Virus record (IMG/VR): IMGVR_UViG_3300023179_000035
Span: 1-64,000 of that record
Reading direction: 5' to 3' (one strand)
Length of the DNA stretch: 64,000 nucleotides
Source of the DNA: a virus
Shown piece after piece: positions 17,059-47,459 of this stretch. Every line of letters begins with the position of its first letter. The stretch's first letter is position 1. The notes beneath the pieces are model-generated. The model saw only the letters and a program-made list of their open reading frames with translations. It made no database searches and had not been told where the DNA came from. Both the position numbers and the translations under genes were made by a program.

Positions 17059-17415
17059 ATGCAGCATAGGATTACTTCGACGAGACTTCGCCAGATAATT
17101 TCAGAAGAGGTCAGGCGCTTCTTGGCCGAGGCCGACGGCGAGGCCGAGGTACCAGTAGGCAAGAAGATGGTCCAGGCGGCCCAGGGCATGGTCGAGCTAC
17201 AAGCCGCCCTCAATAAGTTTAGGGACACAAGCCCCGACGCGGCGGCGGCGGTCGACGCACAGCTGGCCGACCTAGAGTCGATACTTGGCACGAAGCTGGA
17301 GCCCCTCGCGTCGCTGGTATCACCTTCACCATCCCCCTCTAAGTTTGCAGGCCCACAGGGGCTGCATTCTCCTCCACATGAGGAAGAGGATGAAGACGAG
17401 GAAGGCGAGTATTAA
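17059..17415 (+). CDS. Small capsid-targeted protein candidate (family member 1)
   Basis: The 118-residue product begins with a short helix TSTRLRQIISEEVRRFLAEADG. The segment TxxLRxIIxEE recurs at the start of five other small ORFs in this window, and FLAE|A (cut after E24) fits the T4 gp21 cleavage rule L/I-x-E before a small residue. T4 internal head proteins carry such N-terminal capsid-targeting sequences that the prohead protease removes. The remainder is acidic and low-complexity, ending in a run of D/E residues. It lies between terminase and portal; ATG follows GCTAGGAGACGACAC. Packaging in the head is inferred. Confidence 0.7.
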   Translation: MQHRITSTRLRQIISEEVRRFLAEADGEAEVPVGKKMVQAAQGMVELQAALNKFRDTSPDAAAAVDAQLADLESILGTKLEPLASLVSPSPSPSKFAGPQGLHSPPHEEEDEDEEGEY

Positions 17416-17473
17416 CACGCAGCCACGTAGGTGATACAAACACCCAATACCAACCTTAACTAGGGGGTAGCAC

Positions 17474-20400
17474 ATGCCACAGAGAGAGTCACAAGAAAGC
17501 TTATTCAGGCGCCTCACCCGTATATTTCGGTCGGGTCCAGCTGTCCACCGCAAGGTGCGGGCTGCTGACACAGGGATAGCCGTCCCAGACAGGACAAAGT
17601 CTTCAGGGGCACTGCTCTTTCAAAAGAGCATGTCCCCGACGTACGCTACTATCACGTCAAACGCTTACAACCTGTCAGAGAGGCTGACGCGGTATCAAGA
17701 CTTCCAAGAGATGGAGTATAGTCTTGATGGTGCTACCAGGATCGCACAACCTGATGGGTACAAGACGATAGAGGAACTGGCGAAAGAGTGCTCTGAAAAC
17801 CCAGGCCACACCTTTGTCGTCTACTCCTACGACCACGAAAAGGGGAAAATTGTTCCTGCGATTGGCAAGCAGGCGAGGCAGACGTGCGTCGACCATGCCT
17901 GGAAAATTACGTTTGAAGACGGCAAATCGATCACGGCTTCAGCAGAGCACCGCCTGATGTTACGCGATGGGACGTACAAGAAAGTAGAGGACATCCAGGT
18001 TGGAGACTCTATGATGCCGTTCTACAGAAAAGACTTGTTTGAAAACTCAGCCAATGGCACTAAGGGTTACAACTGGGTCTATACGCTAGACGGCAGGTTC
18101 AAAGGCTGGACGAAGGAACACCAGCTTGTCGCCGAGTGGATGCTAGGACGCCAGCTCGTCGAAGACGAGGTCGTCCATCACATCAACTTCAACAAAAAAG
18201 ACAACCGCCCAGAGAACCTGAGGGTGATGTCAAAGTTCGACCACAACTCTTTGCACGCTGCGATAAACAACAGCTCCAAGTGGAGCGAAGAGAACACTGC
18301 GTGGGTAGAGAACTTTAAGAAGAACCACGCCGAATGGATGGCCAAGAACGCTCCGACCCGTCGCCGAGACGTGACATTTCCTAAGATAATCCAAGTAGGC
18401 GAGAAGGTCGGGTTCGATATTGGAAAAATCGCTAGCGTCCTCGACGCCTCTACCTACCTGATCCACGAGAGGCTCACCGCCAACGGCTTCTCTACTTTTG
18501 AGTCTTTCAGGAGAGCGTACGAATGCGGCAGCTTAAACGCCGGCGCAGTCGGCCAAAAGATGAGGCTGACGAGAGAAATTAGCCTAGAAGAAATAAAGCA
18601 AAAGGTGGAAGAGTCTGACACCAAACGATCTCTCGCCATCAAGCTCAACTGCACCGTCAATGTCCTAGACAAGTTCCTAGAAAGACGCGTCAACAGTTCT
18701 TGGAACCAAATCAGAAAAGAGTGCGGCCTAGGGCCGTCGAACGAGAACAGCGGAAGGCCAAAAGGAGCCAACAGGCATGGCGTCACTTTCCAAGACGTTT
18801 GCAACGTATACGAAAATGGGATAACGAGGCCAAGGCTGGCCGACAAGCTCAATGTGTCGACGTCAACTGTGACGCAAGTCCTTGCGGCTGTGGGCTTCAA
18901 AAAATACAGCGAATTTGTCGACTCTTACGCTAACCACAGGGTCGTCTCTATCGAGTACTGCGGTGAGATTCCGCTCTATGACCTGACTGTCGACGGCTAC
19001 AAGAACTTCGCGACAGACACCGTCATCTCTCACAACACCGCCGAGATCGCGTCTGCCCTCGACATCTACGCCGACGAGACTGTGGCGCAGGACGACAAGG
19101 GCAGGATACTCCACATCTACTCAGACAACCCAAAGATAAAGTCTCTCCTCGACGACCTGTTCTACAACATCCTCAACGTAGAGTTCAACCTGCGGCCCTG
19201 GGCCCGTAACCTCGTCAAGTTTGGAGACTTTTTCCTCTACAACGACGTGTCCCCCTCCGAGGGCGTCATCAACGCCTTCCCGGTGCCCGTCAACGAGATT
19301 GAGCGGGAAGAGAACTACGACAGGTCTGACCCGTCTGCTGTCAGGTTCCGATGGGTCACCCTGGGCAACAGGGTCCTTGAGAACTGGGAGGTGACGCACA
19401 TGCGCCTCCTCGGCAACGATATGTTCCTGCCCTATGGCTCTTCAGTCATCGAGCCCGCCCGCCGCATCTGGCGACAGCTCATCCTCATTGAGGACGCCAT
19501 GCTAGTGTACCGAGTCGTCAGGGCCCCTGAGAGGCGCGTATTCTATATTGATGTTGGGGGACTTCCCGCGGAGGCTGTTCCTGCATACATTGAAGACCAG
19601 AAGAAGGTCCTGAAGTCCAGCCAGGTCATCGACAGGCAGAGCGGCAGGGTAGACGTACGTTATAACCCAATGTCGGTCGAAGAAGACTACTTCCTCCCAG
19701 TGCGTGGTGGAGAGTCTGGCACCAAGATAGACACCCTTGCCGGCGGGCAGAATGCAGCCGCGGTCGAGGACGTTACTTACATCCAAAAGAAGCTGTTTGC
19801 AGCCCTTAAGATTCCGAAGGCGTACCTCGGCTATGACGAGAGCCTCTCGTCAAAGGCCACACTAGCCCAGGAGGACATAAGGTTCTCTAGGACAGTGTCA
19901 GTCATCCAGAAGACTATCATAGCAGAGCTCAACAAGCTCGCCATCATCCACCTCTACTCCCACGGGTATGACGCCGATGACCTCGTCAACTTCACCCTTA
20001 GGCTGTCTAACCCATCGACTGTGGCACAGATGCAGAAGCTGGAGCTGTGGAAGTCTAAGTTTGAGATTGCTGGCGCATCGCTAGGCGAGGGCATGGCTTC
20101 CAAGACTTTCGCCCGTAAAGAGATACTCGGCCTGACGGACGAGCAGATACAGGAGATAGACGCGCAGAGGTACCAGGAGAAGATAGTCGAGGCCCAGATT
20201 GAGGCAGCCAAGCCCGAGGAGGAGTCAGGCGGCGGCGGTGAGGGAGGCGAAGAGTCTATCAGCGACATCCTCGGTGGTGGTGAGGAGAAGGGTGGCGAAG
20301 AGGGGGAGAAGGGCGGTGGCGAGGAAGAGAAGCCAGCCGAGGAGACGCCTCCCCCTGAGAACGCCGGCGAGGACAGGGACGATGGCCTGGAGCTCCTGAC

Positions 20401-20803
20401 GTCAGACGACTCTGAGCCTGGAAACCTAGAGTTCTCTTCGGCCAAGCCAAAGGGCAGGAAGAGGCCGCCCGTCAAGGTGGCGTCAGCCTCACAGAAAGCC
20501 ATGCAGGATGCAGAGCGTCGGTCTAAGAGGCGTCGCTATGACGGTCCGGCCAAGACGCACATGCCAAACTTCTACAAGATGGCGACGTCCATCGACTCGC
20601 TGAGCGACCCACCAGACATGTCGTGGCTCAGCTCGGCTGCGAAGAATCCATTCTCCGAGGGCAGCGTCGTCAGGCCTACCCTGCCCCCCGACATCGTCAA
20701 AGCCCTCAGGGGAATGTCGGCCCGGAGCGAGCGCAGGACGGGCCTCCTGTCAGAGGACTACGAACTAGACATCACAACGAACGACGAAGGTGAGGAGACA
20801 TGA
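17474..20803 (+). CDS. 20: Portal protein (T4 gp20-like) interrupted by an intein
   Basis: The precursor has 1109 residues. N-extein 1-82 ends ...DFQEMEY; intein 83-521; C-extein 522-1109 begins TAEIASALDIYADETV, which is the conserved gp20 core. The spliced portal would be 670 residues, longer than T4 gp20 (524) because of a C-terminal tail (about 905-1010 of the precursor) rich in Glu and Gly. The portal forms the dodecameric vertex through which DNA is packaged and to which the neck attaches. It lies between terminase and protease as in T4, and its stop overlaps the next ATG (ATGA). Function depends on splicing. Confidence 0.93.
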   Translation: MPQRESQESLFRRLTRIFRSGPAVHRKVRAADTGIAVPDRTKSSGALLFQKSMSPTYATITSNAYNLSERLTRYQDFQEMEYSLDGATRIAQPDGYKTIEELAKECSENPGHTFVVYSYDHEKGKIVPAIGKQARQTCVDHAWKITFEDGKSITASAEHRLMLRDGTYKKVEDIQVGDSMMPFYRKDLFENSANGTKGYNWVYTLDGRFKGWTKEHQLVAEWMLGRQLVEDEVVHHINFNKKDNRPENLRVMSKFDHNSLHAAINNSSKWSEENTAWVENFKKNHAEWMAKNAPTRRRDVTFPKIIQVGEKVGFDIGKIASVLDASTYLIHERLTANGFSTFESFRRAYECGSLNAGAVGQKMRLTREISLEEIKQKVEESDTKRSLAIKLNCTVNVLDKFLERRVNSSWNQIRKECGLGPSNENSGRPKGANRHGVTFQDVCNVYENGITRPRLADKLNVSTSTVTQVLAAVGFKKYSEFVDSYANHRVVSIEYCGEIPLYDLTVDGYKNFATDTVISHNTAEIASALDIYADETVAQDDKGRILHIYSDNPKIKSLLDDLFYNILNVEFNLRPWARNLVKFGDFFLYNDVSPSEGVINAFPVPVNEIEREENYDRSDPSAVRFRWVTLGNRVLENWEVTHMRLLGNDMFLPYGSSVIEPARRIWRQLILIEDAMLVYRVVRAPERRVFYIDVGGLPAEAVPAYIEDQKKVLKSSQVIDRQSGRVDVRYNPMSVEEDYFLPVRGGESGTKIDTLAGGQNAAAVEDVTYIQKKLFAALKIPKAYLGYDESLSSKATLAQEDIRFSRTVSVIQKTIIAELNKLAIIHLYSHGYDADDLVNFTLRLSNPSTVAQMQKLELWKSKFEIAGASLGEGMASKTFARKEILGLTDEQIQEIDAQRYQEKIVEAQIEAAKPEEESGGGGEGGEESISDILGGGEEKGGEEGEKGGGEEEKPAEETPPPENAGEDRDDGLELLTSDDSEPGNLEFSSAKPKGRKRPPVKVASASQKAMQDAERRSKRRRYDGPAKTHMPNFYKMATSIDSLSDPPDMSWLSSAAKNPFSEGSVVRPTLPPDIVKALRGMSARSERRTGLLSEDYELDITTNDEGEET
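17720..19036 (+). mobile_element. Intein with HNH homing endonuclease inside the portal gene
   Basis: This 439-residue in-frame insertion shows all splicing blocks. Block A is SLDGATRIAQPDGYKTIEEL with Ser as first residue instead of the usual Cys. Block B is KSITASAEHRLML. Block F is LYDLTVDGYKNF and block G is VISHN followed by extein Thr. The central endonuclease is of HNH type (VVHHINFNKKDNRPENL, about residues 233-250 of the precursor). It is followed by three helix-turn-helix-like segments of the kind used for target recognition (around 300-350, 365-415, 425-475). Base composition is slightly more AT-rich than the flanking portal. Insertion beside the most conserved portal motif is typical of inteins. 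Confidence 0.92.
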
Positions 20804-21642
20804 GCGGCCACAACAAGCGAAGGAACAGCGCGTTAGTCTATGAGTTTCTGGTGAAGCACGTGGCCAAGTGCCTCGTGTCTGACGACAAGGCGTCGTCCAA
20901 CAGGGCCCTTAAGATACTGAAGAAGTACTACAGGCCCGGGACGGAGGTGTACAAGGAGTTTAGGCTGATAGACTCCCTGGCCCGGACTCACGTCAGCACC
21001 CAGGCCGTCGCCGCCTCCATCATGTCAGAGGCCAAGTCAGCGTCGCGTGGGGTCGACCCACGCAAGCTGGACGCCGAGAAGACGTCGATGCTACACGAGC
21101 TGAACAGGGCGATCAAGGACCCAGACTTTTACGAGCAGCCTGTGGCTGACTACAAGCTGCTCGCCACCCTGCAGTCCCTTGTCAACCACTGGCGTGGGTC
21201 GACCAGCCTAGACATAGGCAGGCTGGCAGAGTACGAGGACGTGGTCTTCGCGAACCTGGTAGAGGCCCCGCAGGAGAAGCAGCCGGGCGAGACGATCTCG
21301 GAGACGAAGGGGACGCGTCGCCTGCTGATGCGGGTGATGCTCAGAAAATTCAACGAGAAGTACCGGGGTAGCCTGACGGAGGACCAGCAAAAATTGTTGA
21401 AGGCCTACGTGGGATCCCCAGGAGACGGCGTGGTGGTCCACCACATGGCGCAGCTGAAGGAGAGCGTCATCAGGCTGCTCGACTCTGCTGTGCAGGACCC
21501 GTCCGCCACTGAGTACTCAAAGAAGAAGCTGTCTGAGGCCAGAGCAGCCGTGGCGGCAGAGACACCCGCCGTGACCGACGAGTGCTTTGTCAACTTTATG
21601 CTGTACGCTAAGCTCAAGTCTGAGCTGGAATCGGAGGGGTGA
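20800..21642 (+). CDS. Conserved hypothetical head-region protein between portal and protease
   Basis: The 280-residue, mostly helical, basic-and-acidic protein starts MSGHNKRRNSALVYEFLVKHVAK and has no recognised domain. In T4 the genes between gp20 and gp21 (gp67, gp68) are prohead core components, so an internal core or assembly role is plausible from position only; it is much longer than either. The ATG overlaps the portal stop (ATGA), and the stop sits 1 base before the protease start, so all three are coupled. No cleavage-type N-terminus is seen. Confidence 0.65.
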   Translation: MSGHNKRRNSALVYEFLVKHVAKCLVSDDKASSNRALKILKKYYRPGTEVYKEFRLIDSLARTHVSTQAVAASIMSEAKSASRGVDPRKLDAEKTSMLHELNRAIKDPDFYEQPVADYKLLATLQSLVNHWRGSTSLDIGRLAEYEDVVFANLVEAPQEKQPGETISETKGTRRLLMRVMLRKFNEKYRGSLTEDQQKLLKAYVGSPGDGVVVHHMAQLKESVIRLLDSAVQDPSATEYSKKKLSEARAAVAAETPAVTDECFVNFMLYAKLKSELESEG

Positions 21643-21643
21643 C

Positions 21644-22243
21644 ATGAGGCTATTAAGTTCATACGAGACGTTTGACTACACCCCGCAGGCCATCAAAGAG
21701 TCGCGGGACCAGAACGGCGGCAAGGTCCTCATGAAGGGGACGCTGCAGAAGGCAGAGACTCTCAACCAGAACGGCAGGGTCTACCCGCGGTCTGTCCTGG
21801 AGCGGGAGGTCCGCAACTACCAGAAGTTTATCATCGAGAACAGGGCACTGGGGGAGTGCGACCACCCTGACTCGTCTGTCGTCAACCTGAAGAACGTGTC
21901 CCACATCGTCAGGGAGGCTTACTTCAAGGACGACGTCGTCTACGGCACCATAGAGCTGCTGGACACTCCCAGCGGCAAGATACTGCAGTCGCTCGTGGAG
22001 AGCGGCGTCAAGCTGGGGATATCCTCACGCGGCGTCGGCTCTACCGCCAAGAAGGGGGACTACCAGGTCGTCCAAGACGACTTCCAGCTCATCTGTTGGG
22101 ATATGGTTTCGGAGCCTTCCACGCCGGGTGCATTTATGATGGCTGAGGGAAAAACCATTACTTCTGATGAATTAAGAAGGGTTTTTAACAAGCAGGATAG
22201 GATAGACAGGGTCCTCAATGATATTTTACACTCAAGAGTGTGA
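21644..22243 (+). CDS. 21: Prohead maturation protease (T4 gp21-like)
   Basis: The 199-residue serine protease has the family signatures LGECDHPDSS (catalytic H74) and LGISSRGVGS (catalytic serine at 127/128), followed by QLICWDMVSEPSTPGAFM, the strand typical of phage prohead proteases. It cleaves scaffold, capsid and internal proteins at L/I-x-E sites during head maturation. Start at ATG 21644 is chosen because it follows a strong Shine-Dalgarno (GGAGGGG) and gives the family N-terminus; the frame is open further upstream. The last 110 bases are visibly more AT-rich than the rest, next to the inserted endonuclease that follows directly at the stop codon. Confidence 0.92.
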   Translation: MRLLSSYETFDYTPQAIKESRDQNGGKVLMKGTLQKAETLNQNGRVYPRSVLEREVRNYQKFIIENRALGECDHPDSSVVNLKNVSHIVREAYFKDDVVYGTIELLDTPSGKILQSLVESGVKLGISSRGVGSTAKKGDYQVVQDDFQLICWDMVSEPSTPGAFMMAEGKTITSDELRRVFNKQDRIDRVLNDILHSRV

Positions 22244-23233
22244 ATGACAGAGCCGACTGGGTCACTCAACTTTAAGAGTTTTAACTGCGCTACCTGTGGT
22301 GCCTCTTTTGCGAGGTATGTGCCCCCGTCTGACAAGAGCGGAACGAGGACATTCTGTTCTCGTTCCTGTCAGATGAAGGGGACTAGGGCGCTTGACTCAC
22401 GCGTCAAACAGTCTGGAAACGTCACTGCCTGCTGCGAGCTCTGCGGAAGTCAGTTCACCAAATACCACAAGGGCCACATGCCGCTGCCTAGATTCTGCAA
22501 CAGAAGCTGCGCAGCGAAGCACCTCTCCTCGTCTGGCAAGAACGGATTTGCTTCAGCGTCGCAGCTGCCACCTGAGACGCGTCAAAAGATAGCCGAGTCT
22601 CGTCGTCTATCGACTACGCGTAGGAACACGGGCAAGAGGCTCTCTGGTGAGACTCGAAAGAAAATATCAGAGTCCTGCATGGGCAAGTCTAACCCAATTA
22701 AGGGCAAGACATACTCAGAGTACTACGGCGAGGAGAGGGCGACTGAGCTCGCGGAATCACACTCACGTAAGCTAAAAGAAGGATTTAAGGCCGGCAGGAT
22801 AAAGCCGACAGCTAGGACATCGTCTGCTCCTACGTACAAGGGAGTTAAGCTGAGGTCAATGCTAGAGCAGAGCGCCATACAGCTTTTAGAGTCATACGGC
22901 CGCCGGCTTGGCGAAGATATCTTTTATGAAGACGAGAGGACGAGGGTCGAGTGGGTTGGACACGACGGGGCTAGCCACACTTACACCCCTGACATCTACG
23001 ATAGCGTCTCAGGGATCGTGTACGAGGTCAAGCCCGCCTGGCTTGTCAGGAAGCCTACTAGAGAGATGGTCTTAAAAGAAGAGTCAGCCATCCAGCAGCT
23101 GCGCCTTAGGGGCATGACGTTTAGTTACATGACATCAGATGACATTTTATGCGGCGGTCTGAGACATGGGCAGCTACATATTACAGGTGACGCCACGGGG
23201 GTATCATACGCCGATGAAACTAACAAAGTCTGA
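22244..23233 (+). CDS. Free-standing homing endonuclease with zinc fingers, NUMOD3-like repeats and PD-(D/E)XK core
   Basis: The 329-residue product has two treble-clef-like fingers (CATC...CSRSC and CELC...CNRSC), then NUMOD3-like DNA-binding repeats (SGETRKKISESCMGK, GKTYSEYYGEERATE), and a C-terminal nuclease core YTPDIYDS...VYEVKPAW, i.e. PD and ExK. This is the layout of phage homing endonucleases. ATG comes directly after the gp21 stop (TGAATG) and the 3' end runs 20 bases into the next gene, so it has been inserted tightly between two head genes. Codon use is more AT-rich than its neighbours. Activity is inferred; the frame is intact. Confidence 0.8.
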   Translation: MTEPTGSLNFKSFNCATCGASFARYVPPSDKSGTRTFCSRSCQMKGTRALDSRVKQSGNVTACCELCGSQFTKYHKGHMPLPRFCNRSCAAKHLSSSGKNGFASASQLPPETRQKIAESRRLSTTRRNTGKRLSGETRKKISESCMGKSNPIKGKTYSEYYGEERATELAESHSRKLKEGFKAGRIKPTARTSSAPTYKGVKLRSMLEQSAIQLLESYGRRLGEDIFYEDERTRVEWVGHDGASHTYTPDIYDSVSGIVYEVKPAWLVRKPTREMVLKEESAIQQLRLRGMTFSYMTSDDILCGGLRHGQLHITGDATGVSYADETNKV

Positions 23234-23591
23234 CCTGAAAGCTGTCGTAAAGGAGTGCCTCGTGGAGCTGCTGTCGGAGGGCATCGGCGGCGTGCAACAG
23301 GCGAAGCCCACACAAAAACAGCCTCAGCGTGTCCTGCAGGCTGAGGCACGTAGTGGCCCTCCAGCTGTCAAGAGGCCCAGCACTGGAAACTCAATATTTG
23401 ACGACATACTAGCAGATACGGCGCGGACCACCCTGCCTAACATGCTGAAAGCCGAGGCCTCAAAGTCGATGCCCACTGTAGGAAGGGTAGAGACGCTTGT
23501 GGAGTCGTCCACACCGCAGGAGCTGTTCGGTGACGAGGCAGCCTCAAAGTGGGCGGCCCTCGCCTTCGCGGCTCCTACAAAGAACACATAA
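23214..23591 (+). CDS. Small capsid-targeted protein candidate (family member 2)
   Basis: The start at ATG 23214 gives MKLTKSDLKAVVKECLVELL, matching the N-terminal helix shared by six small ORFs, followed by LLSE|G, a good gp21-type cleavage site after residue 22. The frame is open 16 codons further upstream, inside the endonuclease, but the shared N-terminus decides the start. The remaining 100 residues are Gln/Pro/Ala-rich with further L-x-E sites (VLQAE|A, MLKAE|A), suggesting multiple cleavages into small peptides as for T4 internal proteins. It lies between protease and scaffold. Packaging role is inferred. Confidence 0.72.
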   Translation: MKLTKSDLKAVVKECLVELLSEGIGGVQQAKPTQKQPQRVLQAEARSGPPAVKRPSTGNSIFDDILADTARTTLPNMLKAEASKSMPTVGRVETLVESSTPQELFGDEAASKWAALAFAAPTKNT

Positions 23592-23609
23592 ACTTTTTGT
23601 CGGGTATAC

Positions 23610-23616
23610 ATACTTA
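23610..23616 (+). promoter_or_regulatory. Candidate late promoter element ATACTTA
   Basis: GTATACATACTTAGG lies 21 bases before the ATG at 23637, between two small head genes; first of seven exact copies. Confidence 0.48.
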
Positions 23617-23636
23617 GGAAACAACGAGGTATTGGT

Positions 23637-23876
23637 ATGAAGCTAACTCCATCAGTTCTGCGCAAGCTTGTCCTAGAAGAGGTCGCTAAGTTGAAGTCAG
23701 AGAAGCTCAAGTCAGGCGCTGCCAAGGAGGTAGATGCTGACGAGTTTGCTGACTCGCTGGAGCACCAGGTCAACGCCCTCAAGGCGTTCGGTATCAAAGA
23801 GGCGAAGCTGACGAAGGAGCTCGCCCTTGTCAAGGAGCGCAAGGCCCGCCTCCTCAAGCGCCTCTCGGGTGCCTGA
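23637..23876 (+). CDS. Small head/core protein candidate (family member 3)
   Basis: The 79-residue product begins MKLTPSVLRKLVLEEVAKLK, another member of the shared N-terminal helix family, and continues as a charged amphipathic helix throughout (ending VKERKARLLKRLSGA). It resembles in size and charge the small prohead core proteins gp67/gp68 of T4, which lie in the same gene neighbourhood. The ATG follows ACGAGGTATTGGT and a candidate late promoter at 23610. A helical scaffold-core or DNA-binding internal protein is the likeliest role; no domain is recognised. Confidence 0.65.
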   Translation: MKLTPSVLRKLVLEEVAKLKSEKLKSGAAKEVDADEFADSLEHQVNALKAFGIKEAKLTKELALVKERKARLLKRLSGA

Positions 23877-23888
23877 TAGGAGGACTCT

Positions 23889-24443: not shown

Positions 24444-24455
24444 GCGAGAACTCAG

Positions 24456-26375
24456 ATGAGCAAGCACCTATACGAAGAGGCATTGGTCGAGGTACGGCAG
24501 CTGCGACAGCTGGCCGAAGACAACGCGCGTCGAGCTGTCATGGAGGAGCTTGAGCCCAAGATAAAGCAGCTCATCGAGAAGCAGCTGTTAGAGGTCGACA
24601 ATGTGACAGAGGAAGACGAGCCTGCTGCCACCTCTCCCACCTCTCCCACCTCTAAAGAGACCCCTGGCCCAGAGGGTGGAGACGAGGAGCGCGATGACGA
24701 CGACCTCGAGGAGAACGTCCTGCCCCTCGGTGAGGGTTCTGCTGCCCTGCTCGTCAAGATGATCGGCGGTAGCAAGTCGTCAGACCCTGCGAGGTACCAC
24801 GACGTCGTTCGCTTCGTCAAGTCGACTGTCGACGAGGCGGCCGGTAGGGAGCTCGTCACCCTAGAGGAGGTCGTCAAGGGCGCCTACGTCGTGGCCCTCA
24901 ACACGCTGCCGGCCGGCGCGTCCCGCTCGAGGGTAGAGGATAGGCTGGACGAATGCTACAAGATGGTCCAAGAGGCGGCGTCGCGGTCCGTCGCTGACAA
25001 GCGGCGCCTCAAGGAGGCCTCGCTCAATATCAAGATCAGCGGCTTTAAAGAGGAGGCTGTCGACGAGGACACCCTGTCAGGCCTCAGTATCGTCATAGTC
25101 CCGGAGTCTGAGGCGCCTGATTCTGGCGAGGGGGAGGAAGCTGCGGAGCCCGCCGCCGAGAAGCCAGAAGAGGCAGAGGCGGTCCCCGGCGACGACGAAG
25201 AGCTTGACCTAGGTGACCTAGGTGCAGGAGAGCCTGCCGGCGAGGAAGAAAAGCCGGAACAACCAGTAAAGAAAGAGGGAAAGAACATGAATCAGTTTGC
25301 AATGCTCAGTGACGACACTGTCGTCGAGATAGACGAGGGCATGCTGCGTCGTGAGATTGCACGCATGAAGGCCCTCCGCGAGGCCAAGGAGGGCGGCATG
25401 CCCAAGCACAACCCCAAGGGCCACGGCGCCGCCTCCGCAGTGCACCACTTTGGTGGTGGCAAGAGCGTCGGCGAGCCCTTCGAGGACGGCGAGTCGCTCT
25501 TCGACGACGACGACCTGATGGAGTCCTGGATGAAGGACGAGGCAGACGGCCCGGCGACGCCAATGAACCCCGCCAAGAAGGATGACGACGACGATGACCT
25601 CGATGAAGTCGTCGCCGAGCTCATGGCCAACGAGGATGAAGACCTCGACGAGATGGGCCCACACGTGGACGAGGAGGTCGACGAGACCGCTGGTCCAATG
25701 GACGAGGACGACGACCTCGATGAAGCAAAGCCTTCTCATGGCGAGGATCCGTCAATGCCAACCCACAGCGCGCAGGGCGTTAACCCAGGCACCAGCACGA
25801 TGACACAGCAGAATGAGTCGCGCCGCCGCCTCGCTGCCCTTGTCGAAGCCAGGAAGAGTGCGGCCCGCAGGGCCGCCGCTGCCAAGAGGAAGGCAGCCAT
25901 GGCCAAGAAGAAGGGCGACAAGAAGAGTTTCACGGAGGCCCGCAGGGTCTTCGTGGAGTCGGTCAAGGTCTACCACAGGGCCAACGCGGCCATCACGGCC
26001 CTGACCGAGTCCACCCGCCGCTCGAATAGCGGCGCCAGGGAGGTCCAGGACCTCCGCAACCAGTTGGCAGAGACCAATCTGTTCAACGCCAAGCTCCTCT
26101 ACACCAATAAGCTGCTGCAGAACGAGGCCCTGTCGCCCCGTCAGAAGGTCGCCATCATCGAGAAGCTCGATGAGGCCCGCAGCCTACGTGAGGCAAAGCT
26201 TGTCTACGAGAGCCTGACACGCACCATCGCGTCGGGCAAGGCTAGCGTCAATGAGGGCGCTAACCGTCAGGTGCTAGGCTCGGCGTCGCGTGCGACCCGC
26301 CCCTCAAGCACCGTGTCGCTCAACGAGGGTGTTGAGACCGCTCGCTGGGCCAGGCTCGCCGGCATCACCAAGTGA
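24456..26375 (+). CDS. 22: Prohead core scaffold protein (gp22 position), with possible internal start
   Basis: The 639-residue product is extremely acidic and helical, with long Glu/Asp/Ala stretches (e.g. 65-90, 210-275, 375-425), several L-x-E cleavage-type sites and a basic Ala/Lys segment near 470-490 (AARRAAAAKRKAAMAKKKGDKK). It sits directly between the protease-region genes and the major capsid gene, the place of T4 gp22, and has the character expected of a scaffold that is degraded on maturation. An in-frame ATG at 25287 has a much better Shine-Dalgarno (GAGGGAAAGAAC) than the annotated start, so a shorter C-terminal product is possible. Assignment rests on position and composition. 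Confidence 0.75.
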   Translation: MSKHLYEEALVEVRQLRQLAEDNARRAVMEELEPKIKQLIEKQLLEVDNVTEEDEPAATSPTSPTSKETPGPEGGDEERDDDDLEENVLPLGEGSAALLVKMIGGSKSSDPARYHDVVRFVKSTVDEAAGRELVTLEEVVKGAYVVALNTLPAGASRSRVEDRLDECYKMVQEAASRSVADKRRLKEASLNIKISGFKEEAVDEDTLSGLSIVIVPESEAPDSGEGEEAAEPAAEKPEEAEAVPGDDEELDLGDLGAGEPAGEEEKPEQPVKKEGKNMNQFAMLSDDTVVEIDEGMLRREIARMKALREAKEGGMPKHNPKGHGAASAVHHFGGGKSVGEPFEDGESLFDDDDLMESWMKDEADGPATPMNPAKKDDDDDDLDEVVAELMANEDEDLDEMGPHVDEEVDETAGPMDEDDDLDEAKPSHGEDPSMPTHSAQGVNPGTSTMTQQNESRRRLAALVEARKSAARRAAAAKRKAAMAKKKGDKKSFTEARRVFVESVKVYHRANAAITALTESTRRSNSGAREVQDLRNQLAETNLFNAKLLYTNKLLQNEALSPRQKVAIIEKLDEARSLREAKLVYESLTRTIASGKASVNEGANRQVLGSASRATRPSSTVSLNEGVETARWARLAGITK

Positions 26376-26420
26376 CGGCACAGACCACAGAGACAACCAA
26401 CTGTTACGGAGAAGAAGAAC

Positions 26421-28313
26421 ATGAAGTCATTCACACTTGAGTCATTAACTGAGGGCATCCGCGAGCGCCACGTCGGCGCAGAGCGTTCGCGCCTCATTGA
26501 GAAGTGGAGCCGCACAGGGCTCCTCCGCGGCCTTGACGGTGTCAAGCGCGAGACCATGGCCCAGCTCCTGGAGAACCAGGCGGCTGAGGTCCTGAAGGAG
26601 AGTAACGGCCTCTCAACCGGTGGCGGTTCGGTCAGCACCTCGGGGCAGCTCCAGGGCTTCACCAACATCGCCTTCCCGATCGTCCGCAGGGTCTTCGGTG
26701 GCCTCGTGGCCAACGAGCTCGTGTCGATCCAGCCAATGAGCCTCCCGTCGGGCCTCATCTTCTACATCGACTACACCTACGGCTCCAACGTCGGTGGGGC
26801 TGCCGGCCTGGGCCTCAACCCACTCGCCGCTAACTCCACCTACACCAAGGGCGCTTCGATCTACAACAACCCAACCGGCAAGGGTGTCCAGTCAGGATCG
26901 CTCGCTGCCGGCGGTATGTACGACCTCGTCGGCACGGGCTTCAGCAAGGTCCACAGCGGCTCAGCCAGCGTGGACGCCACCAACGCCCTGTCGGGTTCGT
27001 TCACGCTAGGCACCACTGTCCTGACCCCCAACGGCTCGTCTGTCTCGTCGCTGACCGCGTTCTCGGCCTCCAACGCCAAGTTCGCCGGCTTCGACCCACA
27101 GATCGCCTCGGCCCTGGACGACGGCTCCCTGGCCGGCTTCAGCTTCCTCCTCGTCCCTGTGGCGGCCATCACCGGCTCCATCGCCAAGGCGGACGTGGCG
27201 GCTGTCGACCAGATCGCCCTCTTCGGCACCGACCAGGGCTCGACCCTGACGGCCTGGAACGACAAGTACCAGGGTGGCACGGGGGTCCTCAACCTCCGCC
27301 GCCTCAACAAGCGCGTCGACGTCAACGGCTCCAATGTCGTGACCCCCAACCCGCTCAATGGCCAGTACGTCCTGATGGTCGTCAAGGGCACCTTCTCGGG
27401 CGCCGCCGCGACGACGCTCAACATCACGGCCACCCTGTCGGACGCCCTCGACGCTTCCTTCGGAACAGGCGCCACCCTGACGGTCCCCTCCTTCGAGTCG
27501 GACTTCTCGACGACCCCGTCGCCGGCCATCCCGGAGATCGACATCAAGATCGAGTCGATCGCCATCACGGCCACCACACGCAAGCTCAGGGCCCGCTGGA
27601 GCCCAGAGCTCGCACAGGACCTCAACGCTTACCACAGCCTCGACGCTGAGGTGGAGCTGACGAGCATCCTGTCGGAGCAGATCGCCCTGGAGATCGACCG
27701 CGAGATCCTCAACGACCTCCTGGCCTCGGCCAACGGCGCCAACCTCTACTGGTCGCGCGCCCCGGGTCACTTCGTCAACAAGGAGACGGGCACCCCCCTC
27801 ACCCTGTCGTCGACCCTGTCGATCGGACCGCAGTTCACCGGTACGGTCCGCGAGTGGTACGAGACCCTCGTCGAGACAGTCATCGACGTGGCCAACACCA
27901 TCCACCGCAAGACCCTCCGCGGCTCGGCCAACTTCATGGTCACCAGCCCGGACGTCGCCACCATCCTCGAGTCCTCGGTCCTCTACAAGCCGAAGTACTC
28001 GATCGACGGCGAGGGACAGGTCGGTTCGCCCTTCACCATCGGTGCAGAGCAGATCGGCACCCTGTCGAACCGCTTCACTGTCTACAAGGACCCCTACTTC
28101 GTTAGGAACAAGATCCTCGTCGGCTACAAGGGCGGCAGCTACCTCGAGACCGGCTACGTCTACGCTCCATACGTGCCACTCATCGTGACACCGACGATAT
28201 TCGCTCCCGAAGACTTTACGCCTCGTAAAGGAGTCATGACCCGCTACGGCAAGAAGGTAATTCGTAGCGACTTCTACGGTACCGTCACCGTGCTCGACCT
28301 AACAACAATATAA
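26421..28313 (+). CDS. 23: Major capsid protein (T4 gp23-like)
   Basis: The 630-residue product starts MKSFTLESLTEGIRERHVGA and keeps a helical propeptide to a candidate gp21 cut at VLKE60|S61, close to the E65 cut of T4 gp23. After it come SGQLQGFTNIAFPIVRRVF, the conserved gp23 opening, and conserved later stretches (SAN-FMVTSPDVATILE, PYVPLIVTP, KVIRSDFYG). It forms the HK97-fold shell. The ATG follows CGGAGAAGAAGAAC. Codon use differs sharply from most genes here: Arg is nearly always CGC, Ile ATC and Leu CTC/CTG, while neighbours use much AGG and ATA, consistent with very high expression. A strong terminator follows. Confidence 0.95.
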   Translation: MKSFTLESLTEGIRERHVGAERSRLIEKWSRTGLLRGLDGVKRETMAQLLENQAAEVLKESNGLSTGGGSVSTSGQLQGFTNIAFPIVRRVFGGLVANELVSIQPMSLPSGLIFYIDYTYGSNVGGAAGLGLNPLAANSTYTKGASIYNNPTGKGVQSGSLAAGGMYDLVGTGFSKVHSGSASVDATNALSGSFTLGTTVLTPNGSSVSSLTAFSASNAKFAGFDPQIASALDDGSLAGFSFLLVPVAAITGSIAKADVAAVDQIALFGTDQGSTLTAWNDKYQGGTGVLNLRRLNKRVDVNGSNVVTPNPLNGQYVLMVVKGTFSGAAATTLNITATLSDALDASFGTGATLTVPSFESDFSTTPSPAIPEIDIKIESIAITATTRKLRARWSPELAQDLNAYHSLDAEVELTSILSEQIALEIDREILNDLLASANGANLYWSRAPGHFVNKETGTPLTLSSTLSIGPQFTGTVREWYETLVETVIDVANTIHRKTLRGSANFMVTSPDVATILESSVLYKPKYSIDGEGQVGSPFTIGAEQIGTLSNRFTVYKDPYFVRNKILVGYKGGSYLETGYVYAPYVPLIVTPTIFAPEDFTPRKGVMTRYGKKVIRSDFYGTVTVLDLTTI

Positions 28314-28416: not shown

Positions 28417-29880
28417 ATGGCATACGGAACTAACAAATCATGTTTATGCCTCATATGTGACGAACAATTTGATCACATGAAGAAGCTGTCAGAACACATC
28501 AAGAAAATTCACAACCTATCACCGCAGGAATACTACACCAAGTACTTCAATAATAATCTGAGGCCATCCTGCCTCATCTGCGGTGGTGAAACGAGGTACG
28601 TCAGCCTCAGCGAGGGATTCAAAAAATACTGCGCATCGGATGCCAAAGTGGCAGCTTCAATGCTTGGTAGTGCTGGCGGTAAAATTAAAAAAACGTGGAA
28701 CAAGGGAAAGACGAAAGAGGACGACGCTAGGATCCTTGAACAGTCCAAGAAAATGTCTGGGGAGGGAAATCCGTTCTACGGCAAGAAACACTTGCCTGAA
28801 TCAATTAAGCGAAATGCCGATGCGCATAGGTTAAAATTTGATGAAGTAATTGGCAGAGTATCCAGAGAAGTTTCAAGCGTTTCTGTTGTCTCTGGCTGGA
28901 AGAGCTACGAAAGCCAAAATTCTCTCCTCCGCGTTGCATGCAAGAAGTGTTTGCTTGAAGACGACGTGTCGTTTTTCAATTTAATGAGATGCTGGAGATG
29001 CAAGAATTGTGATCCTATTGGATCAAGGCAACAGCTCGACATCTCGAATTACGTTAAGTCTTTTGGTTTTATCGTTGAAGACTCAACAAAGAAAGTTATC
29101 CCTCCCCTCGAGCTGGACGTCTGGATTCCGGAGAAGATGGTTGCTATAGAATATCACGGCCTTTACTGGCACTCAGGAGGGAGAGAATCGACGTTCGACA
29201 AGCGACGTCATAGAAAAAAGTACGAAGCTTGCGCCGCAGCTGGCATTAAACTCATACAAATTTTTTCTGATGAGTGGCGTGACAAAGAGGACATCTGCAA
29301 GTCGATTATAAAGAATGCGCTAGGCAAGAATGACGTAAAGTTGAATGCTAGAGATTGCGTAGTTGAAGATGTTGATGTCACGACAGCACAAAAATTTCTT
29401 AACGACACACACATCTCCGGCTACACGAGGTGCAAGCATAAGTTTGGGCTATTCCATAAGACGCATGGCCTTGTAGGAATTGCGACCACTAGAACACCGA
29501 TCCAAGGAAGATGGGGAAGGTTATCTGAGCTGGCCAGAATGTCATTTGCTAGCGGAGTTTCTGTCCGCGGGGGTGCATCAAAGTTACTCGAAAAGGTAAA
29601 GTCCCAAGCGGTTGTAGAAGGTTTCGAAGGAGTCCTATCCTACGCAGATCTTCGATTCGGCAATGGTGCTGTCTACGAAAAGTGCGGTCTAAAGTATATT
29701 GGAGAATCTACGATTAATTACTGGTACACTGATGGCCATAAACGATTTGACAGATTTGCATTCAAAGCGCAGCCTGGAAAATCTGAGAAGCTGGTGGCAG
29801 ATGAGGCTGGCGTTCGAGCCGTGTGGGGATCAGGTAATAAAATCTACGCGTGGAAACATGATCCTTCAATCTTTCTTTAG
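28417..29880 (+). CDS. Homing endonuclease, Vsr-like core with zinc fingers and C-terminal acyltransferase-like region
   Basis: The 487-residue product has an N-terminal C2H2-like finger (CLICDEQFDHMKKLSEHIKKIH), NUMOD3-like repeats (WNKGKTKEDD, GEGNPFYGKKH), a Cys4 ribbon (CKKC...CKNC), then a Vsr/PD-(D/E)XK-type core: LELDVWIPEKMVAIEYHGLYWHS, and IFSDEWRDKEDI. The C-terminal 200 residues resemble a GNAT-like fold and end with FDRFAFKA...DEAGVRAVWGSG. The same architecture occurs in the genes at 48137-50119 and 50766-52418. It is clearly more AT-rich than neighbouring genes, indicating recent transfer. It sits between the capsid terminator and a fibre gene. Confidence 0.82.
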   Translation: MAYGTNKSCLCLICDEQFDHMKKLSEHIKKIHNLSPQEYYTKYFNNNLRPSCLICGGETRYVSLSEGFKKYCASDAKVAASMLGSAGGKIKKTWNKGKTKEDDARILEQSKKMSGEGNPFYGKKHLPESIKRNADAHRLKFDEVIGRVSREVSSVSVVSGWKSYESQNSLLRVACKKCLLEDDVSFFNLMRCWRCKNCDPIGSRQQLDISNYVKSFGFIVEDSTKKVIPPLELDVWIPEKMVAIEYHGLYWHSGGRESTFDKRRHRKKYEACAAAGIKLIQIFSDEWRDKEDICKSIIKNALGKNDVKLNARDCVVEDVDVTTAQKFLNDTHISGYTRCKHKFGLFHKTHGLVGIATTRTPIQGRWGRLSELARMSFASGVSVRGGASKLLEKVKSQAVVEGFEGVLSYADLRFGNGAVYEKCGLKYIGESTINYWYTDGHKRFDRFAFKAQPGKSEKLVADEAGVRAVWGSGNKIYAWKHDPSIFL

Positions 29881-32447: not shown

Positions 32448-32747
32448 ATGAACCCCAGCGCCATCCTGAAAAAATCTTTCCTGTTGCTGCTGTTAGTTTC
32501 ATCATGCGATAAGCCAAAATTTCCCAAGCATCACCAGACCTCGCTGGACGTTGATGTTCTGTACTGCGATGCGGCTGGATCGAAACTTCGATCTTTAAGT
32601 TGCGATGAAGGTAACCCAACGAAGAAAGGAACCTCTTTCGAGGACCTGTGCCGCGATCTAGAAAGCAAGAGCATTTACGTTGGAGCGCAGTGCATCTCAA
32701 AGATCAGCTCGTGCGATCAGGTCGACGACTGCACAGGGAGCCGATGA
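32448..32747 (+). CDS. Small cysteine-rich lipoprotein
   Basis: The 99-residue product has a classic lipoprotein signal: basic start (MNPSAILKK), hydrophobic SFLLLLLVSSC with a lipobox (VSSC, Cys20), then a short soluble domain of about 80 residues with five more cysteines that could form disulfides in the periplasm. It would be exported, lipidated and anchored to the membrane. A TATAGT hexamer ends 8 bases before ATG, so the message may be leaderless. It overlaps the start of the papain-like protease by 4 bases. Possible roles are superinfection exclusion or control of the partner protease; neither is shown by sequence. Confidence 0.72.
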   Translation: MNPSAILKKSFLLLLLVSSCDKPKFPKHHQTSLDVDVLYCDAAGSKLRSLSCDEGNPTKKGTSFEDLCRDLESKSIYVGAQCISKISSCDQVDDCTGSR

Positions 32748-33535
32748 TGGAGGCGTTTAGAGTCGGCGGGTACATACCCGACCCAAAGAGTGACAAGGAC
32801 TACAAGTTTGCTTCCTTCGCTCCGGTCCTGACCCGTCCCGCGCAGCCGGGGGTTAGGAACATCATCAAAGAGCTGACGCCCGTCTCTAACCAGGGTCAGC
32901 TGTCTTCCTGCGTCGCCAACTCCACCGTCGACGCCCTTGAGATCCTCCTAGGGCTCGAGGACCCAAGCTCTGTCCAACAGCTGTCGCGCCTCTTCGTCTA
33001 CTACAACGCTCGCAACTACGACGACGCCACCCGCGCCGACGCTGGTACTTTCATCCGCAACGCTTTTAGCTCCCTCAGGGACTTTGGGGTGTGCCGCGAG
33101 GACGACTGGCCTTACAATCCAAGCAGCGTCTACCTCCAGCCTTCCATCAACTGCTACAAGGAAGCCAGCGACAACCGTCTCGCAGCCTTCTACAGGATAG
33201 ACTCGTCAGGCGACCAGCTCCTCGACGACGTTGTCAACGCCCTCGACGCCAATCATCCTGTGGTCTTCGGGACGGGTGTGTCTAAGGAGTTCACGCAGAC
33301 CTTCAACGCAGGACCCGACGTGGCCTTCACAGCTCCCGCTTCGACCGTCGGTAACCACGCCATGATTATCGTGGGCTACGACACGGTCCCATACCTACGA
33401 TTTTACGTCCGCAACTCGTGGGGACCAGATTGGGGCGACGGCACAGGGCACTGCTGGTTCAGCCCTGATTACGTCAAATCAACGATGACGTCAGACCTGT
33501 GGGTCCCCACCCTGGTTCCTCCAATTCTTACTTGA
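32744..33535 (+). CDS. Papain-like (C1A) cysteine protease
   Basis: The 263-residue product has the full papain catalytic set: NQGQLSSC with oxyanion Gln50 and nucleophile Cys56, GNHAMIIVGYD with His205, and VRNSWGPDWG with Asn224. The N-terminal GYIPDPKSDKDYKF block is typical of bacterial and viral C1A enzymes without a long propeptide. No signal peptide is present, so it acts in the cytoplasm, in the virion, or on release at lysis. The start at ATG 32744 overlaps the lipoprotein stop and follows CAGGGAG; a second ATG is at 32747. C1A proteases are unusual in phages. Target unknown. Confidence 0.85.
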   Translation: MMEAFRVGGYIPDPKSDKDYKFASFAPVLTRPAQPGVRNIIKELTPVSNQGQLSSCVANSTVDALEILLGLEDPSSVQQLSRLFVYYNARNYDDATRADAGTFIRNAFSSLRDFGVCREDDWPYNPSSVYLQPSINCYKEASDNRLAAFYRIDSSGDQLLDDVVNALDANHPVVFGTGVSKEFTQTFNAGPDVAFTAPASTVGNHAMIIVGYDTVPYLRFYVRNSWGPDWGDGTGHCWFSPDYVKSTMTSDLWVPTLVPPILT

Positions 33536-35877: not shown

Positions 35878-36216
35878 ATGAAGATAACGACGACGCAGCT
35901 CAGGAAGATTATTAGGGAAGAAGCGCAGCTCCTCATGGAGGATCCGGAGGATCCTGCAACAATGAAGGCTGAGCCAGGGGCTCAAAGAGCTTCTAATGTG
36001 TTAACAACAATTGAAGGTTCAAGCAATCTAATGCATAAGATGCAGTCCCTTGCAATGGCAAATAAGAAGGATGAGATTACCGCATTATTCCAGGGGCTGC
36101 TGGACGTGATGCACGATGCGAATCCCAGGCTGTCAACGTCCAACATCGTCTCGGCTTTGAGGACAGTCACAGCCACAGAGAAGGATCCTGAAAAGCCCAA
36201 GACGTCCACGGCGTGA
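35878..36216 (+). CDS. Small capsid-targeted protein candidate (family member 4)
   Basis: The 112-residue product begins MKITTTQLRKIIREEAQLLM, the clearest match to the shared N-terminal helix. ATG 35878 is chosen for that reason; the frame is open upstream into the tmRNA, which cannot be coding. The remaining chain is helical (MHKMQSLAMANKKDEITALFQGLLDVM) and ends in a Lys/Pro/Thr tail. It starts 35 bases after the tmRNA 3' end. No gp21-like L-x-E/small site is perfect here (IREE|A is the nearest). A packaged head protein is inferred. Confidence 0.7.
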   Translation: MKITTTQLRKIIREEAQLLMEDPEDPATMKAEPGAQRASNVLTTIEGSSNLMHKMQSLAMANKKDEITALFQGLLDVMHDANPRLSTSNIVSALRTVTATEKDPEKPKTSTA

Positions 36217-36896: not shown

Positions 36897-36901
36897 TAGG
36901 G

Positions 36902-38629: not shown

Positions 38630-38639
38630 GGGGACAGCT

Positions 38640-40528: not shown

Positions 40529-40600
40529 ACGCTGTCAAAAAAGATAAACGCCCCTGGCGTCTATAATTAGTCATGGCAGCCAACAACCGGAGACAACAAG

Positions 40601-43600: not shown

Positions 43601-43696
43601 AGGCTCAACGGGCGCGTCGTCATAGTGCCGACCCGGTCGATCGAGTTCATCGCCATAGACTTCATAGTCACAAACAGCGGCGTTCAGTTCGTGTGA
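40601..43696 (+). CDS. 18: Tail sheath protein, copy A (T4 gp18-like)
   Basis: The 1031-residue product starts with the sheath signature: FFDREIDLSG, PPTGTPAGVIGTSNKGPAFV, and near the C-terminus RVNVRRLLLEVKRIIGNIA with VIVPTRSIEFIAIDFIVTNS. Sheath subunits form the contractile cylinder that drives the tube through the envelope. T4 gp18 has 659 residues; this protein has about 370 extra, mostly between about 90 and 500, likely surface domains. A second sheath gene follows 49 bases downstream. The leader holds CTATAATTAG at 40561 and GGAGACAACAAG before ATG. Confidence 0.92.
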   Translation: MAEQTFRSPNFFDREIDLSGKVPTPPTGTPAGVIGTSNKGPAFVPVTVGNFDDFSLKFGGLNPDHPAVYAVNRFLETRQSLTFLKVLGAGANSSSADSDYTRTYGRVVNAGFTLPSSNSNGGVYFISTTEVPTVSESYGFPMFNDNDSFSGYDSVSGTLGSAGMQLIRGMVMLPSTARLLTFGSGTNVTETDVNSLNKDHTWLADSPLDGDAGLDYYFKLVISSSNSDFKAYNTSDGIKGVKIFSASLNPSSPNYIGKILNTDSKKFEEKQHFLYAHFPIDHQVSFPVSASLLSGTQNSSLVDTNIKYRDLFGHFDTRFTTPASPTFISQPFGDKEHDLFHFEALDDGEFANKLYKISVANLKVSADPTNPYGTFSVQVRDWNDSDITPSILEQYDNCDLNPSSPNYVAKLIGDMRRYFNFDASTLAERRVLIDGNFENVSKRVRVVMNDDVKNKQVPAKSLPFGFRGMQLLKTADTISGMSGSINAAATILQRSAGTVSAQLPPIPFRVKLTTGQVNMSGSLFDTSKYEVLKPSLYWGVKFERNTDILKVNEVVERNELLDSYTKFLGIPGLMTLTDQDTADSLNNNKFSLSRVTFNVTSLDNMTQSAELHMLNTAYIRNGVPDPNSYMMVDTTNNISTPHVTLASLVNATDNSYTNGVVAASNFNRFAQYTKFTTFMYGGFDGTNILDNDSRLLNEKSLSFVEVSSDGSAGGASSMYEMPGFPGYNPSGVHGKNASVMSYKTAADIMTDPYAVATNILTIPGIKESFVTDYAAEKVRSYGLALYVMDITSYDDDNKAIFDGTRAKPNIENTAAQFEQRNMDNDYVATYFPDVFLDDATNRRRVKVPASVAALSALGFNDKDTFPWFAPAGFNRASLDFVTNVQVRLNVTDRDRLYDAKINPIATFPRQGFVIYGQKTVKAKKSALDRVNVRRLLLEVKRIIGNIATNLIFEQNTPALRNKFVADATVQLGLIQAQAGIEASQVIMNESNNTQDDVDNNRLNGRVVIVPTRSIEFIAIDFIVTNSGVQFV

Positions 43697-43745
43697 AGTT
43701 GGCCGTCGTAATAGTTATGAAGCAATCAGCTAGGAGCCACACCAG

Positions 43746-46700: not shown

Positions 46701-46817
46701 ACGACGCAGGCCGACATCGAGAATAACACGGTCCGCGGCAAGATATACCTGCAGCCAACGAAGAGCGTCGAATTCGTGTCCTTGGACTTCGTTGTAACAA
46801 ACAACATCCAGCAGTGA
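43746..46817 (+). CDS. 18: Tail sheath protein, copy B (T4 gp18-like)
   Basis: The 1023-residue product is a clear paralogue of copy A: SREIDLTG, GVPAGVIGTSQMGPAFVPIT, LSLNDKLGHPWFAPAGYTRG, DRVNVRRLLIEVRRQVRDIA and LQPTKSVEFVSLDFVVTNN. The two differ most in the central insertion domains. It begins behind TAGGAGCCACACCAG. Both are full length, so both are probably functional; they may alternate in the sheath, occupy different rings or be alternatives. It is followed by a small head-protein candidate. Confidence 0.92.
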   Translation: MSSTYRVSPGVTSREIDLTGPTTTGPRGVPAGVIGTSQMGPAFVPITVANISELENRFGAFDRTEFGILAAREWLSNAQALTYLRVLGVGTGEMSMVNDNDSPGSGAGRVKYAGFVVGNKLPGAALGGTSWGDLVGNPYASGSGPGGRTYFLGAFMGADVNVASVGDQLFTSGVLAGTAPQPFIVGVLMAPSGVVLTLSSTYGGGNSDVASSNAYLPSGSSVGDVVLKSPASTMSGMSQFVMLLNGHATGTTAITASLSRNSNSYFGSTFNTVPTKMQEAGHYLYAAWDYPGLSVTGSSLMSGSVTSSYSNPKYVEPIVFLLTGSNDQNHVSATSPNYENFETRFGHAVTPMVVSQRIGGKPTDLFRLHALSDGAGVAKNYKFSIENITPSPDPAYLYGTFDLLVRSWNDTDFEKTVYEKYTGLSLDPTNDRYIAKAIGDVNTYYDFERDTNSQKLVVEGDYNNNSSIVRVEVSDDVSLGLAAAECLPMGFRGLPHLVTSGSALKVDGLDLAVTGSGVSSFSSLLKSARQAPVPYVLSIYKGLSTKRTADPNRYWGVAFDLPVLTNDTGVQLGRHKNQFVSDFTKFFPQFIVGNPNFVVGDNAGVADDVNFGVVDADRFNNNLFTLENIAVVTSSKTPHMADPNAWQNAEYMRNGIKPADDRRMLTVSDLTTDNKGYAKFTFVMQGGFDGVNLFDEHSAAIDGVAVECDMRQPLRHDVNGANVKAYTKALDVMKNVTNVDIQLLAMPGIRNTYVTDRALAAVESRFDAMYLMDVEAYDQGDNLLLPGTENFMDNGLPVEKVDVSYTAQNFADRGINSSFGAAYFPDLRYVHPSTAAEVQVPPTVAVLGALSLNDKLGHPWFAPAGYTRGVLPNVTDPTVPLTDADMDRLYDRDVNMVIKKAAPAGTVVWGQKTLLKAASALDRVNVRRLLIEVRRQVRDIAQTILFEPNRAATLARFSAAITPRLQTIQQQAGLDRFKVIIDSSTTTQADIENNTVRGKIYLQPTKSVEFVSLDFVVTNNIQQ

Positions 46818-46838
46818 TAGACAAGGAATAGAAAGAGC

Positions 46839-47168
46839 ATGACAATGAAACTCACAGCCAACCAGCTCCGCCAGATCATCAAGGAGGAAGTCGATGCTAT
46901 GATGCCTGCCGCTGGAGGCAAAGACCCACAGCGCTTCCTCCACGGCTACGAGTCCGGTCACCCGATGGACGACGAGGGCTACATGGCCAAGTCCCGGATG
47001 GTGGATATCAAGGAGATGGCTGGGACGATCTGTGGCCTGGTGGAGGAGGGCGACCAGCTCCCAGCATGGGTGCAAGACCTGATCGCCAAGGCCCATGAGA
47101 ACCTTGAGCACGTCAAGGACTACATGGCCGGGGACGAGGCCCTGCGTGATGCCGGGGAGACAGACTGA
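46839..47168 (+). CDS. Small capsid-targeted protein candidate (family member 5)
   Basis: The 109-residue product starts MTMKLTANQLRQIIKEEVDA, the shared N-terminal helix with two extra residues. The remainder (MVDIKEMAGTICGLVEEGDQ, LPAWVQDLIAKAHENLEHVKDYM) matches a small helical domain found in virion proteins of several large phages, where 'LPxWVQxKI-xA-xDYI-xVxxYL' is the core. The ATG follows GGAATAGAAAGAGC. It is the last gene before a strong terminator. A packaged head protein is inferred. Confidence 0.72.
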   Translation: MTMKLTANQLRQIIKEEVDAMMPAAGGKDPQRFLHGYESGHPMDDEGYMAKSRMVDIKEMAGTICGLVEEGDQLPAWVQDLIAKAHENLEHVKDYMAGDEALRDAGETD

Positions 47169-47203
47169 CGCTGGCTGTGGCTCCGCCCTTCCTGTGAGAT
47201 AGG

Positions 47204-47240
47204 TCCTGGTGGTCCACGAGGCCACCAGGATTTTTCTTTT
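47204..47240 (+). terminator. Rho-independent terminator after sheath operon
   Basis: A 9-bp perfect stem (TCCTGGTGG / CCACCAGGA) with a 9-base loop is followed by TTTTTCTTTT. It ends the neck-sheath transcription unit. Confidence 0.9.
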
Positions 47241-47297
47241 CCTCTGGACGGTAGAAACCCACGCCTACTGTGGGAGGATTATCCTGGTGTCATCTAG

Positions 47298-47304
47298 ATA
47301 CTTA
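47298..47304 (+). promoter_or_regulatory. Candidate late promoter element ATACTTA
   Basis: TAGATACTTAAGC lies 11 bases before the ATG at 47316, after the terminator. It would drive the short tag-like ORF and the amidase gene. Confidence 0.48.
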
Positions 47305-47315
47305 AGCGACAGCCG

Positions 47316-47459
47316 ATGATACGACCTGACACATTCCTCCGCCGCGTCATTCGTGAAGAGGCCAAGAGGGTCCTACACCCCAGCCATTTCGTGTGGGGCT
47401 CGTCCAGATGGGCTGCGGGACTGACCCCGCCCAGAACCTGGAGAGGGCTGTCGAGCTGA
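47316..47459 (+). CDS. Short ORF with capsid-targeting-like N-terminus (family member 6)
   Basis: The frame reads MIRPDTFLRRVIREEAKRVL and continues in a different frame from the amidase for another 27 codons to TGA at 47457. The first 20 residues match the helix shared by five other small proteins (LRRVIREEA). The rest overlaps the amidase and is probably not selected as protein. Either it is a leader for coupling, or ribosomes shift by -1 and fuse this tag to the amidase, whose frame is open back to 47357. No canonical slippery heptamer is seen. Confidence 0.45.
   Translation: MIRPDTFLRRVIREEAKRVLHPSHFVWGSSRWAAGLTPPRTWRGLSS

Follow-up and report, generated by a model that had tools for sequence, protein, structure and literature searches.

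A probable capsid-targeting tag shared by otherwise unrelated proteins of uncultured T4-like phages

Why should several small phage proteins that differ in every other part begin with the same helix? This question is raised by the window analyzed here, a stretch of 64,000 bases that represents bases 1-64000 of a 116,394-bp IMG/VR virus record. The first-pass annotation described six open reading frames (ORFs) in this window with a common N-terminal helix, and proposed that the helix is a removable capsid-targeting peptide of proteins that are injected with the DNA. We followed this tag through the complete record, its relatives, and larger sequence collections.

The source phage is T4-like and belongs to the gp23 lineage. 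Its head module includes a large terminase of T4 type (PF03237), a gp20 portal protein (PF07230), an S77 protease (PF03420), and a gp23 capsid protein (PF07068). Judged by the capsid protein, the nearest isolates are Rhodothermus phage RM378, the Flavobacterium immuto phages, and Microcystis phage Mel-JY01, with identities of 31-46%. The prohead protease, which is of the T4 gp21 type, is encoded on the plus strand at 21587..22243 (PF03420, E 6.5e-25; PHROG 207, E 2.5e-50), with the ATG at 21644 being the likelier start; it is the proposed tag-removing enzyme. A probable scaffold protein in the role of gp22, acidic and helix-rich, is encoded between the protease and capsid genes (24456..26375, plus strand). 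Family searches with this protein gave no match of weight, and it may be the binding partner of the tag. The major capsid protein (26421..28313, plus strand; PF07068, E 3.7e-76) has a predicted propeptide cut at VLKE60/S61, the codon of the glutamate ending at 26600. The underlying [LI]-[KR]-E is invariant in 80 of 80 relatives and aligns with LTE65/A of T4 gp23, the position at which that protein is cut.

Several other features of this region were recorded. The portal gene (17474-20803) is interrupted by an intein with an HNH endonuclease domain, and homing-endonuclease-like ORFs are inserted in the head and tail region at 22244-23233, 28417-29880, and, on the minus strand, 48137-50119. The first of these sits between the protease gene and a tagged gene, referred to below as family A, and overlaps the start of the latter; the last has a weak REase_MTES_1575 match. 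An ORF among the structural genes (32648-33535) has, by eye, the look of a papain-type cysteine peptidase (SSCVAN, GNHAMIIVGYD, NSWGPDWGDG).

A 23-residue tag profile was built from relatives only, with the window sequences left out, and used to search the whole 116,394-bp record. Five of the six proposed members were recovered, namely those at 17059, 23214, 23637, 35878, and 46845 (the last listed earlier under its annotated start, 46839); all match at an ATG, with 23-30 bits and E-values of 5e-5 to 3e-7. The sixth, at 47316, scores 7.4 bits and is considered doubtful. The rest of the record adds no convincing further member, only a match of 11.6 bits at 72192 that has no start codon. On comparison the window members proved mutually unrelated in their C-terminal parts, as had been claimed.

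All of the window members are encoded on the plus strand. The ORF at 17059..17415 (118 aa, 23 bits) lies between the terminase and portal genes and begins MQHRITSTRLRQIISEEV...; its tag comprises residues 1-24, its ATG precedes the start of the profile match by two residues, and the predicted cut is FLAE/A, with the codon of the glutamate ending at 17130. The ORF at 35878..36216 (112 aa, 27 bits) has a predicted cut at LLME/D. Relatives of these two proteins were sought in IMG/VR and none were found. Family A (23214..23591, 125 aa) and the adjoining family B (23637..23876, 79 aa) have 41 and 35 non-redundant relatives, respectively, those of family B in the same slot. The ORF at 46845..47168 (107 aa, 29 bits) has tagged relatives (L174-L177) that are 51-76% identical and come from records as large as 298 kb, and in a more distant relative (L178) the C-terminal part stands behind a different N-terminus. 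Its AlphaFold2 model (mean pLDDT 62) has a helix at residues 5-19, which a stretch of low confidence separates from two long helices. A short motif in this protein, QLPAWVQDLIAKAHENLEHVKDYM (47055-47130), weakly matches several PHROGs as well as DUF7239, and L178 has this motif too.

The doubtful member (47316..47459, 47 aa; E about 5) is short, reads MIRPDTFLRRVIREE, and lacks the K-[LI]-T part of the tag. As seen in the junction sequence, it overlaps a nitrilase gene (47393) that lies in another frame, one base off. That gene extends to 48244 (CN_hydrolase, E 6.7e-64), and its GTG start at 47393 has no visible ribosome-binding site. The two ORFs could have arisen from a single tag-nitrilase gene through a frameshift. 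Nitrilase relatives were sought for such a fusion, and the three loci found were all truncated.

The tag is an N-terminal module, is not a chance pattern, and is widespread among related viruses. In 2.3 Mb of relatives, the profile has 151 matches with scores of 9 bits and above, and 150 of them begin at a start codon; 141 matches reach at least 12 bits in the real proteins versus none in reversed ones. Relatives located through their capsid protein contain many copies; a 257-kb record has about 18 matches, for example, and one of 167 kb has 12. The tagged genes often form runs of neighbours. A tblastn search of 50,697 phage records with the consensus tag gave one marginal match, the 484-kb uncultured LR756508.1, which has about 29 tagged ORFs; no cultured phage with a near-consensus tag was found among those records. 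When a degenerate DNA pattern for M-K-[LIM]-T-x3-L-x-x-I-I-x-E-E was used, 13 stretches matched in 257 Gb of cellular genomes compared with at least 120 in IMG/VR. Several of the cellular matches are clusters of tags on contigs that resemble phage binned in metagenome-assembled genomes (MAGs). Although MK-rich protein starts are common, the reversed-sequence control and the random-contig control described below refute chance or a composition effect at translation starts, which we now consider to have a negligible probability. A description of the motif was not found in the open-access literature that was searched; an earlier description elsewhere is possible.

Behind the tag, the C-terminal parts fall into 286 families without mutual blastp similarity. 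Few of these match known domains, among them a GNAT acetyltransferase (E 7e-7), a cytidylyltransferase-like domain (E 1.6e-7), and a polynucleotide-kinase-like domain (E 3.8e-7). One has a weak match to Lar-like restriction alleviation proteins (PHROG, 2.7e-4; Pfam, 0.0074, which is below the cut-off). In ORFs of L175, L180, L181, and L212 a second tag stands mid-chain, which suggests fused or polyprotein cargo. One genome (G003) encodes several tagged paralogs (L097-L099) with a TPxxAxExGIxF-like start after the predicted cut, apparently a cargo family that has undergone a small expansion.

The T4 head protease gp21 cuts after L/I-X-E (PMC9026906), and the first-pass annotation had noted L-x-E behind several of the tags. 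This holds for 17059 (FLAE/A), 23214 (LLSE/G), and 35878 (LLME/D); 23637 and 46845 have no obvious site. In the latter two, the tag core I-I-x-E-E itself fits I-x-E and a cut may occur there, but since the core is part of the module, the fit proves nothing. In a first set of families chosen by a hidden Markov model (HMM), [LI]-x-E ends at tag residue 17-28 in 51 of 78, compared with 6-12 of 62-78 in equal windows further downstream; in a second such set it is present in 126 of 209 families. Because the HMM reaches residue 24 and could bias this count, it was repeated on 108 families picked by residues 1-15 alone. The motif ends at residue 17-28 in 75 of these, with peaks at 21 and 22, compared with 7-17 of 66-108 (about 15%) in equal downstream windows and a mean of 23 (maximum 37) in shuffles of residues 16-30. 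L/I-x-D occurs only 7 times in the same families and other L/I-to-E spacings 13-39 times. A mere tendency to form helices would hardly be expected to produce so strong a preference for E over D and for a single spacing. The preference at P1' is mild, with A and G enriched about 1.9-fold. No L/I-x-E follows the helix in about a third of families, 46845 and family B among them.

The tag is also linked to the S77 protease. We selected 27 large records for the presence of the tag (23 with the pattern, four through relatives of 46845) and compared them with 24 control records picked by an arbitrary 14-mer. S77 is encoded in 20 of the 27 tag-bearing records compared with 1 of the 24 random ones, a contrast that is somewhat inflated because the random records are smaller on average. 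Among the tag-bearing records, S77 was present in every one of the 14 viral records that reach 127 kb, in 4 of the 11 smaller fragments, and in the two MAGs; in one MAG, the protease and the tags located by the pattern are on separate contigs. In several tag-bearing records, no more than about 1 kb separates the protease gene from a tagged gene. The tag was detected in none of the 24 random records. One of these encodes S77, which shows that not every S77 phage carries the tag.

Families A and B accompany the protease gene throughout the lineage. The predicted cut of family A in the window is LLSE/G, with the codon of E22 ending at 23279. Among the 41 non-redundant members, P1 is E in 39 and D in two, P1' is G in all 41, and P2 is variable; the conserved block ends at the predicted site and conservation is lost just behind it. 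A second [LI]-x-E-[ASTGV] is present in the hypervariable linker of 23 of 39 members (shuffle mean 2.3). In the AlphaFold2 model, a helix at residues 5-23 (pLDDT about 90) ends at the site; behind it, a linker modeled with low confidence leads to a C-terminal part that is helical. A Foldseek search with this model found nothing. Matches of family B in the PDB, one de novo helix bundle and a coiled coil, were not taken as meaningful. In Microcystis phage Mel-JY01, the slot between protease and scaffold holds a small annotated ribosomal protein S21 rather than family B (L163 22183-22410).

This arrangement has parallels in T4. The internal proteins of T4 share only an N-terminal leader (PMC12373910; PMC3012670). 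This leader brings the proteins into the scaffolding core, where they arrive with it still attached, and gp21 cleaves it off; several of these proteins are restriction inhibitors that are injected (PMC3012670, PMC5694885, PMC12373910, PMC9026906). Ten N-terminal residues of IPIII are sufficient for targeting (PMC9026906). The T4 capsid-targeting sequence (CTS) of IPI, IPII, IPIII, and Alt resembles the tag in being an N-terminal leader common to otherwise unrelated proteins and in having L/I-x-E at its end, here in about two thirds of families. T4 and the tag-bearing phages also have in common a protease of the S77/gp21 type, and the T4 cargo is injected. However, the leaders differ in sequence and length (MKT[YF]xEF..., 10-19 residues, in T4; MK[LI]TxxxLRxIIxEE, 20-28 residues, here), and the number of copies per genome is four in T4 compared with up to about 29 here. 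The tag profile gave no match above 0 bits to T4 IPI, IPII, or IPIII. In phiKZ-like phages (SPN3US, phiKZ), the head protease likewise cuts inner-head proteins after a short x-x-E motif. Their propeptides are mostly longer than 100 residues and are cut at A-x-E or S/A-x-E (PMC5694885, PMC9026906), in contrast to the short common helix and L/I-x-E observed here.

We conclude that the tag is probably a removable capsid-targeting peptide that is functionally similar to the T4 CTS but of other sequence and length, and give this reading a probability of roughly three in four. It is supported by the N-terminal placement, the unrelated cargo, the [LI]-x-E at a fixed distance, the co-occurrence with S77, the tagged gene next to the protease gene, and the site in the capsid protein. 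As the tagged proteins have the same anatomy as the T4 internal proteins with a different sequence, a similar route is proposed. The first 20-28 residues would form an amphipathic helix that acts as the targeting peptide and, during head assembly, probably docks its protein on the prohead core, that is, the scaffold. In about two thirds of families, the S77 protease, which acts within the completed prohead, would then probably cut behind the [LI]-x-E that closes the helix. The C-terminal part would be left inside the head and travel with the DNA, in which case the tagged proteins could form the injected arsenal initially envisaged. Families A and B are likely to be permanent prohead-core proteins built with the same helix rather than cargo, the other, lineage-specific tagged proteins being the likely cargo. 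Both resemble T4 gp67 and gp68 (80 and 141 aa), which are small, have several L/I-x-E sites, and are encoded beside the protease gene; the correspondence is one of size and place, with family B recalling gp67 and family A gp68, and the gene order differs. Homology to these proteins was not detected (hhalign probabilities of 0.2 and 0.1 for the two comparisons).

The role of families A and B leads to the most serious alternative: that the tag marks only parts of the prohead core or scaffold, which contribute to head assembly and are afterwards broken down and expelled, so that no cargo is injected. Two points would agree with this: both universal families are encoded next to the protease gene, a position occupied in T4 by the core genes 67 and 68, and family A has more than one predicted cut. 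Core proteins are nevertheless expected to be few and conserved. Copy numbers that reach about 29 per genome, on C-terminal parts that are unrelated, specific to lineages, and in some cases enzyme-like, make this explanation unlikely. The helix could instead be an assembly signal for another site in the virion, such as the portal, neck, or tail, with L-x-E merely capping it. Several tagged genes do lie among tail genes, and 46845 comes after two sheath-like genes. Yet a helix cap accounts poorly for E rather than D at P1, for an offset of exactly two, for the variable P2 next to an invariant E/G in family A, and for the link to the head protease; we judge it quite improbable. The basic character of some tag versions (MRITKRQLKRIIREE) might indicate a helix that works in the infected cell, through dimerisation, DNA binding, or docking to a host complex, in no connection with virions. 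This would leave the S77 link, the fixed L/I-x-E, and the conserved neighbourhood of the protease gene unexplained, and we hold it to be very improbable.

Beyond the capsid-targeting reading itself, a broader proposition can be put forward, on which we are evenly divided: that one exchangeable, cleavable head-loading label, unlike the T4 CTS, carries tens of proteins per virion across large uncultured T4-like phages. The cargo would be mostly of unknown fold and readable from metagenomes, with the two-tag ORFs suggesting polyproteins. As far as sequence can tell, the tag appears to be a widespread and new form of capsid targeting in the manner of T4. Homology searches miss the proteins that uncultured phages carry in their virions because most have no relatives; one short tag profile would list candidates for such proteins directly, and hundreds of candidate families were obtained from a small sample. 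The T4 equivalents of the tagged proteins are specific inhibitors of restriction enzymes (PMC12373910), and the list of tagged proteins is therefore a likely source of new anti-defence proteins. In addition, with two tags of unrelated sequence to compare, this one and the T4 CTS, it would become easier to learn which features the prohead core recognises. If the label is indeed exchangeable, the cargo that these phages use for host takeover and anti-defence would be readable straight from metagenomes.
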